Positions 2,537-13,558 of a stretch of DNA of 47,763 nucleotides are shown here, piece after piece. A program made the translations under genes and the position numbers. The stretch comes from a virus. The stretch's first letter is position 1. The number at the start of each line of letters is the position of its first letter. The stretch is taken from the IMG/VR virus record IMGVR_UViG_3300050821_002480, positions 1 to 47,763 of that record. One strand, given 5' to 3'. The notes under the pieces were generated by a model. The model saw only the letters and a list, made by a program, of their open reading frames with translations, was not told where the DNA came from and ran no database searches.

Positions 2537-2721
2537 GCGATCACCGCAAATTCCGCTCTGTCCCGCTTATCCGCCTTAACCCTCTCGCGAGAGACCGATG
2601 AGCAAATCCGCGAACAGAATGAGCGCCGCTTAAAGGAAGCGGTCGTTTCAAGGTCGCCGCCCTTGTAAATCTTCAAGCCGAATTTTCGGCCACATAGACG
2701 GCACGGTTTTTCAAGTCTCAT
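2533..2721 (-). CDS. Small cysteine-rich (zinc-finger-like) protein
   Basis: The function of this 62-residue protein is unknown. The N-terminal CRLCGRKFG and the later FCSRICSS provide CxxC and CxxxC pairs separated by about 25 residues, a layout expected for one zinc ion. The C-terminus is basic (SRERVKADKRDR), consistent with nucleic-acid binding. It overlaps both neighbours by 4 bases (ATGA), placing it between the DnaA-domain-IV gene and the HTH gene in the leftward operon. Confidence 0.7.
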   Translation of the reverse strand: MRLEKPCRLCGRKFGLKIYKGGDLETTASFKRRSFCSRICSSVSRERVKADKRDRAEFAVIA

Positions 2722-3248
2722 AGCATCGCCTCCACGTGCGCCACGTCGTAGGCGACCTTCCAGTCTGTTTTGATTGCCGCTTCGATCTTGCGAACGCCAT
2801 GGATGACTGTCGTATGGTCTCGACCTCCAAGCCTGCGACCGATATCAGGGAATGATTTTCCGGTTAGTGTCTTGGCGAGATACATTACGATGTGACGGGG
2901 ATAGGCGATCGTGCAAACCCGACGCGCGGACTCAAGATCATTATTGGCGAGCTTGAAATATCTCGCTCCGGCTCGCTTGATGTCCTCCACCATGGGAGCG
3001 CGAGGCTCTGCGTCAATGATGGAAAACCACGGTTTTACGACGGGCGCCGTGACCGTCTTTTCAACCGGAATTGGCGTGGCATGATGCTTAATAAGCTTGG
3101 CGAGAAACTTCGTTGTGCATTTCCGGTTTTCGATACGGCGTTCGCATTCGGTCTGGCCGAGGTCTTCGATACTCATGACTTCCCCATTGTTCGCAACTGT
3201 GATGCAGGCGATAGAAATTTCCTCGCCGTGACTGACGGCGGTAGGCAT
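2718..3248 (-). CDS. DnaA domain IV-containing protein (phage initiator or regulator)
   Basis: The C-terminal third of this 176-residue protein matches domain IV of bacterial DnaA, the part that binds DnaA boxes. Visible are RHIVMYLAKTLTG (about 118-130), FPDIGRRLGGRDHTTV (133-148, containing the signature GGRDHTTV) and GVRKIE. The AAA+ ATPase domain III of DnaA is absent, so it cannot act as a complete initiator. It may mark or block DnaA boxes, or serve as an origin-binding or regulatory factor. An internal ATG at 3176 has a better ribosome site (GGGGAAG) and would give 152 residues; the longer start at 3248 is listed because it leaves only a small gap to the upstream gene. Confidence 0.85.
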   Translation of the reverse strand: MPTAVSHGEEISIACITVANNGEVMSIEDLGQTECERRIENRKCTTKFLAKLIKHHATPIPVEKTVTAPVVKPWFSIIDAEPRAPMVEDIKRAGARYFKLANNDLESARRVCTIAYPRHIVMYLAKTLTGKSFPDIGRRLGGRDHTTVIHGVRKIEAAIKTDWKVAYDVAHVEAML

Positions 3249-3267
3249 TACGCAAAAATCACAGAAA

Positions 3268-3483
3268 TCAGGGGCGCTCGGTGATCGCGATAATCACCGC
3301 TGCGATAACCCTGGCTGGAGGCTCGTACTCTCCCGACAGCCAGCGTTTCGCCGTTCGTTCATCCTTCCCGGCTATGCTCGCCAGATGCGCCGCTGTTTTG
3401 ATGGGCCATAAAAGCCTTGCAACAGCAGCGAATTTCAGCGGTGGGACAACCGTGTCCCTTTCGGGATTGTAGTGTCCCTGCAT
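3268..3483 (-). CDS. Putative helix-turn-helix protein
   Basis: This protein has 71 residues from the ATG at 3483; a TTG at 3525 in frame would give 85 residues and cannot be excluded. The segment TAAHLASIAGKDERTAKRWLSGEYEPPARV reads as a Cro/excisionase-type helix-turn-helix, in which the turn and the KRWLSG recognition helix are recognisable. It is probably a small DNA-binding regulator at the head of the leftward replication operon. The partner site is unknown. Confidence 0.65.
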   Translation of the reverse strand: MQGHYNPERDTVVPPLKFAAVARLLWPIKTAAHLASIAGKDERTAKRWLSGEYEPPARVIAAVIIAITERP

Positions 3484-3591
3484 TTCGCTGGCGGTAGCCA
3501 ACGGATTGCCGAATGATGAACGCAACGCCCTACCCCCGTGGAACGCAACATGACGCTACTAAGATTCACAAACGAAACAGAAATAGCCGAG

Positions 3592-3894
3592 CTATTGAAC
3601 GAGCAACGCGAACATGATGATCGGAAGCGAAAAGGCGAGGCCGAACACCCCCATCATCGTGATCCACCAGGCGAGGCAAACCACGTCGATCATCAACTGC
3701 GAAAGCCAGTGGCGGGTTAGATGGAACGCGCCGGTTATTGGATATTCGCCGCGATAATATTGATTGTGGCTGTTAGCCTCGTTGTAGAAGTTTGGTTTTG
3801 ACCGAATAAAAGGCGACTGGCTTTCACCAGCCGAGTTGACCACACCACGCACGGGAGGGTGCTCTTGGCGGGCAAACGAATTGGGGAATGTCAT
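3592..3894 (-). CDS. Small protein with C-terminal membrane segments
   Basis: This protein has 100 residues and no family was recognised. The ATG at 3894 follows a CGGAG ribosome site about 8 bases upstream. The first 60 residues are hydrophilic. The C-terminal stretch from about residue 66 (MIDVVCLAWWITMMGVFG, then LPIIMFALLV) is strongly hydrophobic and probably forms one long or two short membrane helices. It is the first gene of the leftward early operon, so an early-acting membrane role such as host takeover or exclusion is possible; this is only a positional inference. Confidence 0.6.
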   Translation of the reverse strand: MTFPNSFARQEHPPVRGVVNSAGESQSPFIRSKPNFYNEANSHNQYYRGEYPITGAFHLTRHWLSQLMIDVVCLAWWITMMGVFGLAFSLPIIMFALLVQ

Positions 3895-10657: not shown

Positions 10658-10755
10658 TCGTTAGGCCAATTCTCTTGATAATCGCGACATATGACATTCA
10701 TGGCGGTTGGGGAATTGTTGCGTTTCTGATCGCCCTTTCTCTTTTTTTTGAATAA
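10654..10755 (+). CDS. Tiny hydrophobic protein
   Basis: This 33-residue protein is mostly one hydrophobic helix (IVRPILLIIATYD, then WGIVAFLIALSLFF). The start overlaps the previous stop as ATGA, and the stop is 13 bases before the excisionase start. Coupling and composition argue for a real small membrane protein, but the evidence is limited. A run of eight T bases near its end (10742-10749) could also cause slippage. Confidence 0.5.
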   Translation: MIVRPILLIIATYDIHGGWGIVAFLIALSLFFE

Positions 10756-10768
10756 CAGACGCCGCCCT

Positions 10769-11182
10769 ATGACCATGCCGGCACCCGAAACTCTTATTAC
10801 GCTCAAGGACGCCTGCGAAATAGCATTTCACGGGGGATGTTCGGTTGCAACCTTGAAAGCAGAGGCGGCTAAGGGCAATCTTGAGGTATCCAAGATCGGG
10901 CGATCGTACTTCACCACGCTCGTTAAAATCAAAGCGATGGAAGCCAAATGCCGCGTAGAAGCTCCGGCCCGCGCCTCTGGTTCGATAAGAAAAGAGGAAC
11001 ATGGACTATCCTCGACGGTCGAAGCCGCCGCCGCACGGGATTCGCTCTTGACGACCATCGAAAGGCTGAAAAGTCGCTCGGGGAGTACATCGCCTCGAAA
11101 CACACGATCAAAGACAGCGCAACACCCTACATCGCAGATGTACTTAATGCCTACGCGACCGAACATCTCGCGCACAAAGTAA
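10769..11182 (+). CDS. xis: Excisionase-like (Xis) HTH protein
   Basis: This 137-residue protein has an N-terminal MerR/excisionase-type helix-turn-helix: TLITLKDACEIAFHGGCSVATLKAEAAKGNLEVSKIGRSYFTT (about residues 8-50). The tail is basic and low in complexity (ARASGSIRKEEHGLS...RSKTAQHPTS) and resembles tails of rhizobial-phage excisionases. It probably directs excision together with the adjacent integrase. Its last 235 bases overlap the integrase start in another frame, far more than the 4-base overlaps elsewhere. ATG 10769 or ATG 10775 could be the start. Confidence 0.8.
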   Translation: MTMPAPETLITLKDACEIAFHGGCSVATLKAEAAKGNLEVSKIGRSYFTTLVKIKAMEAKCRVEAPARASGSIRKEEHGLSSTVEAAAARDSLLTTIERLKSRSGSTSPRNTRSKTAQHPTSQMYLMPTRPNISRTK

Positions 11183-11952
11183 GCGGTTCACATATTCTAT
11201 ACGACATAAAGAAGTTGGGAAAATGGTGGGGCGAGAAAAGAGTAGCGGAGATAACCGCCAAGACCTGTCGAGCCTATGTGGCGCACAGGAAAGCGCCGGG
11301 GTGCTCTCGGAGAGAGCTGGCGTTCTTGAATGCCGCACTTACCCACTACCACAAAGAGCACGGGCCGCTGCATATCGTCCCTGTCGTTGTTTTACCGCCA
11401 AAGCCCTCACCGAGGCAGAACTTCATGTCACGAAAGGAAGGTGCGGCCTTCCTGCGCTTTGCAAGAAAGACGCCGCACTTAGCCCGTTTCTTCCTAATCG
11501 GGTGGTACACTGGAAGCCGTCGCAGCGTGATAACCGGCCTGAAATGGTCGATGATAAATCTTGAAACCGGCGTGATGAAACGGAAAGAATCCCATGTGGT
11601 TCAAACGAAAAAAAGAGCCCCGCCCGTCCGCGTTGGTGCCCGTTTGCTGGCGCATCTCAGGCGATGGCACCGATTGGATCATAAGGACGGACCCGCCCAT
11701 TATGTTATTGCCTTCAGAGGTAGACACATCAATAGACCATGCAGCTCGTGGGATCGAGTTAGAGAGGCTGCGGGTCTTCCTCAATACGTCACTCCGCACG
11801 TCCTCAGGCACACCAGGGCAACGACGATGATGAAGGCTGGCGTCTCATTGTGGGATGCCGCGAAGGCTTTAGGCATGTCTGTGACCATCCTTGAGAGCAC
11901 TTACGGCCACCATCATCCCGACTGGCAAAAGGACGCCGCGGAGGCCCGTTAA
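10948..11952 (+). CDS. int: Tyrosine recombinase (phage integrase)
   Basis: This 334-residue protein would catalyse attP-attB integration. The N-terminal part (MPRRSSGPRLWFD...RGTWTILDG) is probably the arm-type DNA-binding domain, followed by a SAM-like core-binding domain (about 60-150: YIADVLNAYATEHL...KLGKWWGEKRVAEIT) and the catalytic domain. Catalytic residues seen are Arg191 in TGSRR, a lysine near 221, His284 and Arg287 in HVLRH, and Tyr319 in ESTYGHHH. The usual second His/Trp position is Met310 (LGM), as in related alphaproteobacterial integrases. The candidate attP follows immediately. Confidence 0.93.
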   Translation: MPRRSSGPRLWFDKKRGTWTILDGRSRRRTGFALDDHRKAEKSLGEYIASKHTIKDSATPYIADVLNAYATEHLAHKVSGSHILYDIKKLGKWWGEKRVAEITAKTCRAYVAHRKAPGCSRRELAFLNAALTHYHKEHGPLHIVPVVVLPPKPSPRQNFMSRKEGAAFLRFARKTPHLARFFLIGWYTGSRRSVITGLKWSMINLETGVMKRKESHVVQTKKRAPPVRVGARLLAHLRRWHRLDHKDGPAHYVIAFRGRHINRPCSSWDRVREAAGLPQYVTPHVLRHTRATTMMKAGVSLWDAAKALGMSVTILESTYGHHHPDWQKDAAEAR

Positions 11953-11971
11953 GTTACCCGGCGGTTACCCA
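11953..11971 (+). repeat. 19-base direct repeat, copy 1
   Basis: GTTACCCGGCGGTTACCCA begins 1 base after the int stop codon. It is repeated exactly at 12126-12144. Each copy contains two GTTACCC motifs in tandem 11 bases apart, about one helical turn, consistent with paired protein sites on one face of DNA. Confidence 0.9.
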
Positions 11972-12125
11972 TGGCGATAGAAACCCTTTAAAATAAGATA
12001 AAACTGTGCTAGTGATTGCAATGCTGGATTTTAGGCGCAAAAACTAAGTCTTTGATTTTGTTGTGGTCGATATAGCCGATAGGGGCATAAACACCGTGAA
12101 CGAAGAGAAAACATACATGGGTACG

Positions 12126-12144
12126 GTTACCCGGCGGTTACCCA
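12126..12144 (+). repeat. 19-base direct repeat, copy 2
   Basis: This is an exact second copy, ending 1 base before the ATG of the integrase-N-terminus/GIY-YIG gene. A further single AGTTACCCAAAT stands at about 12590-12601, and the bases after copy 2 (AAATGCC) share the CCCAAAT extension with it. Confidence 0.9.
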
Positions 12145-12145
12145 A

Positions 12146-12589
12146 ATGCCGCGCCCGTATCTAGGCCCCAGCCTTTGGCTTGATCCGCGAAGGGGAACTT
12201 GGACCATCACGGATGGCCGCAAGAGGGTTAGAACTGGTTATGCCCAGCATGAGCGGGATTTGGCCGTCGTCGCCGTCAGCCAATACTCTAACGGAACATA
12301 TAACCCAAATCGGCCACGCGGACCTCAACCGATTTATAAAGTAGAGCCTCGGCGCGGAGTCTACGTCATTGGTTTTGATAAATACGTCAAAATCGGAATT
12401 ACGATCAATCTGGACATGCGTTTAAGCGCCCTACAGATGCCCGTGGAACTGACTTTATACGCGCTACTAGACGGCGGACGCCGAGAGGAAAATGAACTTC
12501 ACGCTCGCTTTGCAGGCTACAGGCTTCGCGGGGAATGGTTTCGAAAGGAAGGGGAGTTAGCCGAATGGATCAACAACAAATGCCAGTGA
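12146..12589 (+). CDS. Integrase-type N-terminal domain fused to a GIY-YIG (MUG113/T5orf172-like) nuclease domain
   Basis: This protein has 147 residues. Residues 1-34 match the start of the neighbouring integrase at 22 of 34 positions (shared G-P-x-L-W-x-D and RGTWTI-x-DGR). Residues about 70-145 form a GIY-YIG-like domain: GVYVIGF, YVKIGI, an arginine in MRLSALQMP, a glutamate in EENELHARF, and GEWFRKEGELAEWI, the pattern of MUG113/T5orf172 proteins. No recombinase catalytic domain is present. The ATG directly follows a copy of the 19-base repeat. The combination suggests a nuclease aimed at integrase arm-type sites; that function is inferred. Confidence 0.8.
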   Translation: MPRPYLGPSLWLDPRRGTWTITDGRKRVRTGYAQHERDLAVVAVSQYSNGTYNPNRPRGPQPIYKVEPRRGVYVIGFDKYVKIGITINLDMRLSALQMPVELTLYALLDGGRREENELHARFAGYRLRGEWFRKEGELAEWINNKCQ

Positions 12590-12729
12590 AGTTACCCAAA
12601 TCAACCAAACGGGCACTTAGGGCATTGCTGGCCAGATATGAGGCCGCCGACGACTATAATAGACCGGCGATAGCCTGGACGATGAAGCGGTTTTTCATGG
12701 GTGTGCAGGGTAAGCCGGTTCAACCGTAG
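12565..12729 (+). CDS. Small basic protein, unknown
   Basis: This 54-residue basic, helical protein (KLPKSTKRALRALLARYEAADDYNR) overlaps the end of the GIY-YIG gene by 25 bases, with GGGGAG about 9 bases before the ATG. A start at 12580 is also possible. No family was recognised; the overlap suggests co-translation with the fusion protein. It could be spurious. Confidence 0.45.
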   Translation: MDQQQMPVKLPKSTKRALRALLARYEAADDYNRPAIAWTMKRFFMGVQGKPVQP

Positions 12730-12754
12730 CGGTCGTTACCTAACAAACCTAAGG

Positions 12755-12826: not shown

Positions 12827-13558
12827 ATGGCGGAAGTTTCTGCAATCTCTTGGACGGACGCGACGTTCAATCCGTGGATTGGTTGCACCGCAATTTCGGC
12901 TGCGTGCGATCTTTGCTACGCACGCACGCTAATGCAAGACAGATATGGTCGCGTCACATGGGGACCGGGGCAACCGCGCATCCGGACCAAGACATGGAAA
13001 GACCCGCTTAAATGGAACAGGAAGGCCGCTGATACGGGGTACAAACCGCGCGTGTTCTGCGCCAGTCTAGCGGACGTGTTCGACAATGAGGCCCCCCAGG
13101 CTTGGCGGGATGACCTTTGGCAGCTCTTGCGGGAAACGCCGAACCTGCGCTGGATCTTGCTGACGAAGCGGATTGGCAATGCACCGAAGATGTTGCCACC
13201 GGATTGGCCGTTTCCGAATGCTGGCTTGATGTCCACCTTGGAAAATCAGGAAGTATGGGACCGCGACTATCCGAAACTGGTGTCCGTCCCGGCGGCGTGG
13301 CATGGCGTGTCTGCCGAACCGCTGCTGGGTCCGATCGACATCGGAGACGCAAAACCAGACTGGATAATTACCGGCGGCGAGAGCGGCGCCGGTTTCCGTC
13401 ACTTAGACATGGATGCCGTGCGGTCGCTCCGCGATCAATGCGCCCGGAACGGCGTCACGTTCCACCATAAGCAGAACGGCGGCTTGCGTGGCAAGGATGC
13501 TGGCTGTCTCGTCGATGGCGTCGAGCACAAGCATTTCCCGCCGGCTTTGGCCGCTTAG
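12827..13558 (+). CDS. DUF5131 (phage Gp37/Gp68 family) protein
   Basis: This 243-residue protein starts with ISWTDATFNPWIGC then CDLCYAR, so three cysteines are arranged like the CxxxxxCxxC cluster of the DUF5131 family, which resembles radical-SAM iron-sulfur proteins. Later family blocks are KPRVFCASLADVFDNEAP, RWILLTKR, WHGVSAEPLLGPID, WIITGGESG and FHHKQNGG. The reaction is unknown. It is widespread in phages and genomic islands, often with DNA-modification genes. The ATG follows GGAGAGACAAGA. The length matches the family. Confidence 0.87.
   Translation: MAEVSAISWTDATFNPWIGCTAISAACDLCYARTLMQDRYGRVTWGPGQPRIRTKTWKDPLKWNRKAADTGYKPRVFCASLADVFDNEAPQAWRDDLWQLLRETPNLRWILLTKRIGNAPKMLPPDWPFPNAGLMSTLENQEVWDRDYPKLVSVPAAWHGVSAEPLLGPIDIGDAKPDWIITGGESGAGFRHLDMDAVRSLRDQCARNGVTFHHKQNGGLRGKDAGCLVDGVEHKHFPPALAA

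Follow-up and report, generated by a model that had tools for sequence, protein, structure and literature searches.

The window analysed here is the whole stretch of 47,763 nucleotides of a soil phage record. It contains a tyrosine integrase gene (int), a putative attachment site (attP) directly downstream and, adjoining this site, a gene in which an integrase-type N-terminal domain is joined to a GIY-YIG domain, in the following called the fusion. The features of this locus are compiled in Table 1.

Table 1. Features of the int-attP region and the fusion gene in the window.
Feature	Position	Strand	Evidence and remarks
Probable xis	10748..11182	+	Position only, as annotated xis/int of Rhizobium phage 16-3; overlaps int 5' end in another frame
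Tyrosine integrase (int), 334 aa, arm-binding (AB) domain aa 1-51	10948..11952	+	PF00589 E 9e-12; phrog_1 E 5e-40
Arm-site pair P, GTTACCCGGCGGTTACCCA	11953..11971	+	Exact 19-base repeat; first base directly follows the int stop
Putative attP core segment	11972..12125	.	Alignment with relatives; conserved AATGCTGGATTTTAGGCGCA at 12020-12039
Leader ORF, VNEEKTYMGTVTRRLPKCRARI and stop, 22 codons	12096..12164	+	GTG at 12096, stop 12162-12164; contains P' pair; overlaps fusion ATG
Arm-site pair P', GTTACCCGGCGGTTACCC, identical to P	12126..12144	+	Exact repeat, 173 bp on; 2 bp before fusion ATG at 12146
Fusion gene, whole	12146..12589	+	147 aa ORF
Fusion aa 1-48, integrase-type AB domain, R27	12146..12289	+	BLASTP, profile, model
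Fusion aa 71-147, MUG113/T5orf172 GIY-YIG domain	12356..12586	+	Pfam, model, invariant residues
Small ORF starting inside fusion 3' end	12565..12729	+	Possibly displaced cargo tail of leader ORF
Fifth GTTACCC, 2 bp past fusion stop	12591..12597	+	Motif count

The predicted structure of the integrase (pLDDT 83) has full-length lambda Int (1z1g) as its best fold match in the PDB, and the ORF designated as probable xis has no Pfam or NCBIfam match. The 19-base repeat which the preliminary description had placed after int and in front of the fusion is exact at both sites, and each copy consists of two sites with a period of 11 bp. The motif GTTACCC occurs nine times in the window compared with 2.96 expected copies, a number reached by none of 100 shuffled sequences, and five of the nine copies are located within 11953-12597. 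Another GTTACC is found at 12735-12740, 5 bp past the stop of the small ORF 3' of the fusion.

Relatives of the window integrase in viral contigs share one plan, in which int is followed by two arm pairs that enclose about 150 bp, including a conserved core. The window likewise follows the plan of phage 16-3, with a putative attP directly after int and a core enclosed by paired arm repeats. As place and plan are those of the relatives and of the annotated functional attP of phage 16-3, we infer from this anatomy that 11953-12144 is attP. The core segment of one relative (L015) holds, by reading of the sequence, the 3' half of a tRNA, as in phage 16-3; Rfam detected no tRNA in the core of the window, and a search for promoters and terminators returned none with confidence. 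A core with arms on both sides suggests that the record represents the unintegrated form, and integration would bring the fusion gene and int to opposite ends of the prophage.

Some variation around this plan was observed as well. In L018, L020 and L023 an extra small ORF separates int from the P arm pair, and in L020 the arm pair lies inside the C-terminal codons of this ORF. Lineage-specific arm repeats 3' of int (GAGTACC, CTTACC, CGGTCCGC) are present in L026, L027, L029, L023 and L041, with the paired 11-bp layout kept. Downstream of the fusion, the window encodes a DUF5131/phrog_2045 protein (12827-13558, E 8e-62 and 3e-74).

Within its first 34 residues the fusion is identical to the adjacent integrase at 22 positions, exactly the number given in the preliminary description, and BLASTP aligns the two proteins with 24 identities in 47 positions (E 5e-13). 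The similarity is reproduced by profile searches: a profile from 20 related integrase N-termini gave 60.9 bits (E 4e-21) with the fusion and at most 6.9 bits with shuffled versions of its first 60 residues (n=2000). The replacement of the recombinase domain by a GIY-YIG domain of MUG113/T5orf172 type, stated in the same description, holds as well, as the C-terminal part exceeds the cut-offs of both Pfam models (MUG113, PF13455: E 1e-10, 42.1 bits, cut-off 22.3; T5orf172, PF10544: E 2e-6, 28.9 bits, cut-off 20). The residues V72, Y73, K82, G84, R92, E115, G129, E130 and W131 are invariant across 10 relatives and are kept in the homologue L201 described below.

An AlphaFold2 model of the fusion, calculated from an alignment of 58 rows, consists of two confident domains (pLDDT 89), with the GIY-YIG domain at residues 71-145 and an N-terminal domain of the order beta-beta-beta-alpha (strands 9-13, 18-22 and 27-33, helix 34-48). 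Structure prediction, which had been proposed for this domain, thus yields an AB-type result, since the order of elements agrees with the described AB fold of three strands and one helix (PMC8138268). No Pfam AB model matches the N-terminus of the fusion, and a Foldseek search of the whole model against the PDB gave nothing significant. Over 36 aa, fusion and int are identical in 61% of the protein and 56% of the DNA positions, and their AB regions have reached saturation at synonymous sites, which points to an old copy with its protein sequence kept. That the N-terminus of the fusion is an integrase arm-binding domain, copied long ago from a phage integrase of this family, is well supported by sequence and model.

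The preliminary description had also raised the occurrence of this domain pair near int in other phages, and one such case was detected. A DNA pattern with WTIxDG and KIG at the appropriate spacing revealed one further fusion in viral contigs, L201 from another metagenome, a protein of 147 aa which is 70% identical throughout. It occupies the same place, behind the 3' end of int and a core that is enclosed by the arm pairs P (AGTACCAGTGGAGTACC) and P' (GAGTACCCGTAGAGTACC), and its arms read GAGTACC instead of the GTTACC of the window. The contig ends before the N-terminus of int, of which the 3' end is seen. Between the two fusions dN/dS is about 0.07, with dS near saturation; judged from this comparison, the fused gene is under purifying selection. 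A protein search of viral contigs with the fusion delivered one GIY-only relative (L003), an AB-profile scan of viral contigs delivered integrases only, and pattern-limited scans of cellular genome contigs revealed no fusion relative. In this set of viral contigs and pattern-limited cellular scans the exact combination of AB and GIY-YIG domains has two members, the window and L201.

Both members bear on the arm sequences by residue 27 of the AB domain. In the integrases this residue is R beside GTTACC arms in 12 of 12 cases, K beside GAGTACC arms in three of three and N beside CTTACC arms (n=1). Fisher's test of R27 against arm class gives p = 0.0005, a value that overstates independence as the integrases are related. 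Since residue 27 varies among related integrases (K n=3, N n=1), the covariation is partly a matter of shared ancestry. The fusion of the window, with GTTACC arms, reads R25-K-R27, whereas the L201 fusion, with GAGTACC arms, reads K25-R-K27, even though in other respects it resembles the window fusion most and has kept G31. By these sequences, the AB domain of the fusion seems to have followed the change of the arm sequence as the AB domains of the integrases did.

The position downstream of the P' arms is a variable one. In the relatives a leader ORF starts just 5' of the second arm pair, is translated through the arms (SVTxxLP) and continues in frame into variable cargo, which comprises a GIY-YIG protein (L007), a DUF4326 protein (L010/L050), an HNH endonuclease read in frame through the arm sites (L015 3672-4621, phrog_374 E 2e-63) and otherwise small unknown proteins. 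In L201 the leader ends with TAATG on the fusion start. In the window, GTTACCCAAAT at 12591-12601 is an exact repeat of the 11 bp at 12137-12147, and removal of 12137-12590 in silico creates a single leader-cargo ORF of 59 aa; in 20000 simulations, direct repeats of 11 bp around the fusion arose by chance 11 times. This suggests an insertion of the fusion gene into an arm site between GTTACCCAAAT repeats. However, we keep this model as unproven, because no homologue was found for the presumed tail (12565..12729) and no arm-type or 11-bp end repeat was seen 3' of the L201 fusion. A matching uninterrupted (empty) allele was likewise not found among the relatives.

Further proteins with a MUG113 domain were collected by a viral scan with the motif LHxRFxxxRxxGEWF, which matched at least 120 stretches. 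Among the matches listed, 82 non-redundant proteins had an N-terminal region and neighbours, and five of these (L101, L119, L079, L072 and L067) share the N-terminus with a same-strand neighbour at E < 1e-5; in four shuffled pairings, none of 328 comparisons did so. The five neighbours are two proven integrases, one recombinase-like protein, one terminase small subunit and one HTH protein. The matched neighbour of L079 is a Phage_integrase protein and that of L072 a phrog_1 integrase. By sequence reading only, the 3' half of a tRNA lies between the two genes of L079, while Rfam found no tRNA in the stretches of L079 and L072. An in-frame TAG in L072 (2600-3110) splits the N-terminal domain of the integrase from the rest, which could be a broken gene, recoding or a sequencing error.

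In L119, a protein combining Terminase_2 (PF03592, E 2e-21) with MUG113 (E 2e-16) is encoded beside an intact terminase small subunit gene (3076-3636 and 2574-3092, both on the minus strand), and its sequence makes it a candidate for a nuclease directed to the packaging site. L067 shares an HTH domain between the MUG113 protein and an excisionase-like neighbour. An N-terminal YWCPTPxM domain is common to a GIY-YIG protein and the adjacent upstream gene in L101 (8067-9854), L087 (1365-3571), L120, L144 and L108. The neighbours in L101 and in L087, L120 and L144, which are of the same type, are recombinase-like by eye only. Those of L101 and L087 resemble divergent tyrosine recombinases but, as Pfam, PHROG, NCBIfam, PDB and profile searches gave no support, they are not counted as integrases. 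Another candidate (L117) lies beside an integrase and its N-terminus looked AB-like by eye, but it was discarded as the two N-termini do not match. In phage Mx8, MUG113 is found inside p19 (L033, AF396866), annotated as replication initiation protein in NC_003085 and possibly another capture of a DNA-binding domain.

From the sequences and models, and with slightly more confidence than doubt, we read the fusion as a nuclease directed to the arms of att, most likely of the homing type. That the shared N-terminus recognises the att arm sites, as the preliminary description had supposed, is likely in view of the profile match, the predicted fold, the position of L201 and the covariation of residue 27. 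An action as nuclease is probable, since the GIY-YIG domain is intact. On the other side, MUG113 proteins are little characterised, and a GIY-YIG protein bound to DNA can also serve as a repressor. The comparable fusions beside other integrases and the other nuclease genes in the P' slot (GIY-YIG in L007, HNH in L015) also suggest a nuclease directed to the att arms. The fusion would bind the arm-type sites of attP by its AB domain, and the GIY-YIG domain would then cut the DNA nearby. The target could be the attP of a co-resident related phage, an excised prophage or a satellite of the same arm class which lacks the gene. Repair by recombination would copy the gene, together with attP and perhaps int, into the cut rival, or the rival would be lost. 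Against this reading stand the two arm pairs that have remained next to the gene, as the phage would need some means of avoiding cleavage of its own DNA; its attP might be spared by occupancy with Int or by a cut site that is broken by the gene.

Homing is somewhat more likely than pure exclusion as the role of the fusion. As is typical of homing genes, the gene is found at its presumed own target, 2 bp from the P' arms and at a spot where the relatives have other cargo, including other nuclease families, and no satellite is known as a target; these points make it unlikely that the fusion is a weapon without homing, which destroys attP, attL or attR in competitors, be they phages or satellites, of the same arm class. 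Such a role has its precedent in Odn of phage ICP1, a member of the same nuclease superfamily with the same kind of aiming, which destroys the PLE origin (PMC8263062). It would further agree with AB residue 27 tracking the arm class, and with the location downstream of int, where the fusion could share the int transcript in the circular form.

Rather improbable is a regulation of integration, in which the AB domain competes with Int for the arms and the GIY-YIG domain, used for DNA binding, dimerisation or nicking, tilts the balance between integration and excision. The conservation of the AB domain at the same attP position in L201 would fit, and the GIY-YIG enzyme I-TevI is known to double as a transcriptional repressor (PMC10448857). 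However, both members and each of the 10 aligned relatives have kept the residues of catalytic type, and most relatives carry unrelated genes in the P' slot, so that there is no general need for such a regulator. Least probable is ordinary domain shuffling, in which the remnant of a duplicated int start happened to be joined to a nuclease gene and the protein has no targeted function: T5orf172 genes readily shuffle domains (PMC10448857) and CCAAATGCCGCG is common to the starts of int and fusion, but against this stand the protein identity kept at saturated third positions, the full-length homologue with its low dN/dS and a residue 27 altered in step with its arms, and the recurrence of this design with integrases of other families.

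Beyond this locus, it is possible, though somewhat doubtful, that MUG113/T5orf172 nucleases of phages have acquired, time and again, the DNA-binding domain of a neighbouring DNA-processing gene in the same phage (integrase, terminase small subunit, possibly replication initiators). They would thereby become aimed at att, packaging or origin sites and drive exchange and conflict over these sites between related phages, with a specificity that co-evolves with the site. The attachment sites and integrase arm specificities of temperate phages differ widely. If the att-directed reading is true, such a nuclease would be a direct cause of the turnover of attachment sites and arms, as phages of one arm class would be cut or converted and changed arms with matching integrases favoured. 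A comparable selection for new PLE origins is attributed to Odn. By the terminase and other cases, the rule may reach beyond att sites, and some annotations as 'GIY-YIG nuclease family protein' may hide targets that are readable from the neighbouring gene.

The preliminary description had stated that no system of this kind is described. This does not hold for the design, which is known from Odn (Gp88) of ICP1, a T5orf172 nuclease with an N-terminal domain 42% identical to PLE RepA_N that needs the PLE iterons for cutting (PMC8263062), and Odn-like proteins were predicted in coliphages (PMC10448857). Odn and the fusion both have a T5orf172-type GIY-YIG domain at the C-terminus, and at the N-terminus a domain taken over from a protein that processes DNA at specific sequences, so that the nuclease would be aimed at the known repeats of that protein. 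However, the RepA_N domain of Odn comes from a satellite and its target, a replication origin, is cut in trans, whereas the fusion has the AB domain of the phage's own integrase family, its gene adjoins the matching repeats at attP, and its predicted target is att. Judged by sequence, the fusion would work like Odn but is not an Odn, as it carries AB and not RepA_N. Within the papers searched, the statement does stand for the integrase-derived, att-linked version: the pair of AB and GIY-YIG was not found in the full-text literature on GIY-YIG or homing nucleases with integrase or att, a coverage outside which subscription papers and preprints lie.

The T5orf172/GIY-YIG homing genes of phages (I-TevI type; ICP1) also combine a nuclease with a separate DNA-binding module and are free-standing and variable in position. 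T5orf172 genes of this type mostly carry Zn-finger CapR, DUF723 or DUF4397 domains (PMC10448857), whereas the DNA-binding module of the fusion is an integrase AB domain, and its homing is a proposal. Rhizobium phage 16-3 shares with the window the xis overlapping int, an annotated functional attP just after int and a tRNA-type core, but is without a nuclease gene at the P' arm, and its integrase is about 32% identical to that of the window. The AB domains of the lambda and Tn916 integrases have the same N-terminal arrangement of three strands and one helix; in the fusion, this domain has lost its recombinase and is linked to a nuclease domain instead. What distinguishes the fusion from Odn is an integrase AB domain as source, att as predicted target and a gene linked to the site of its own phage.
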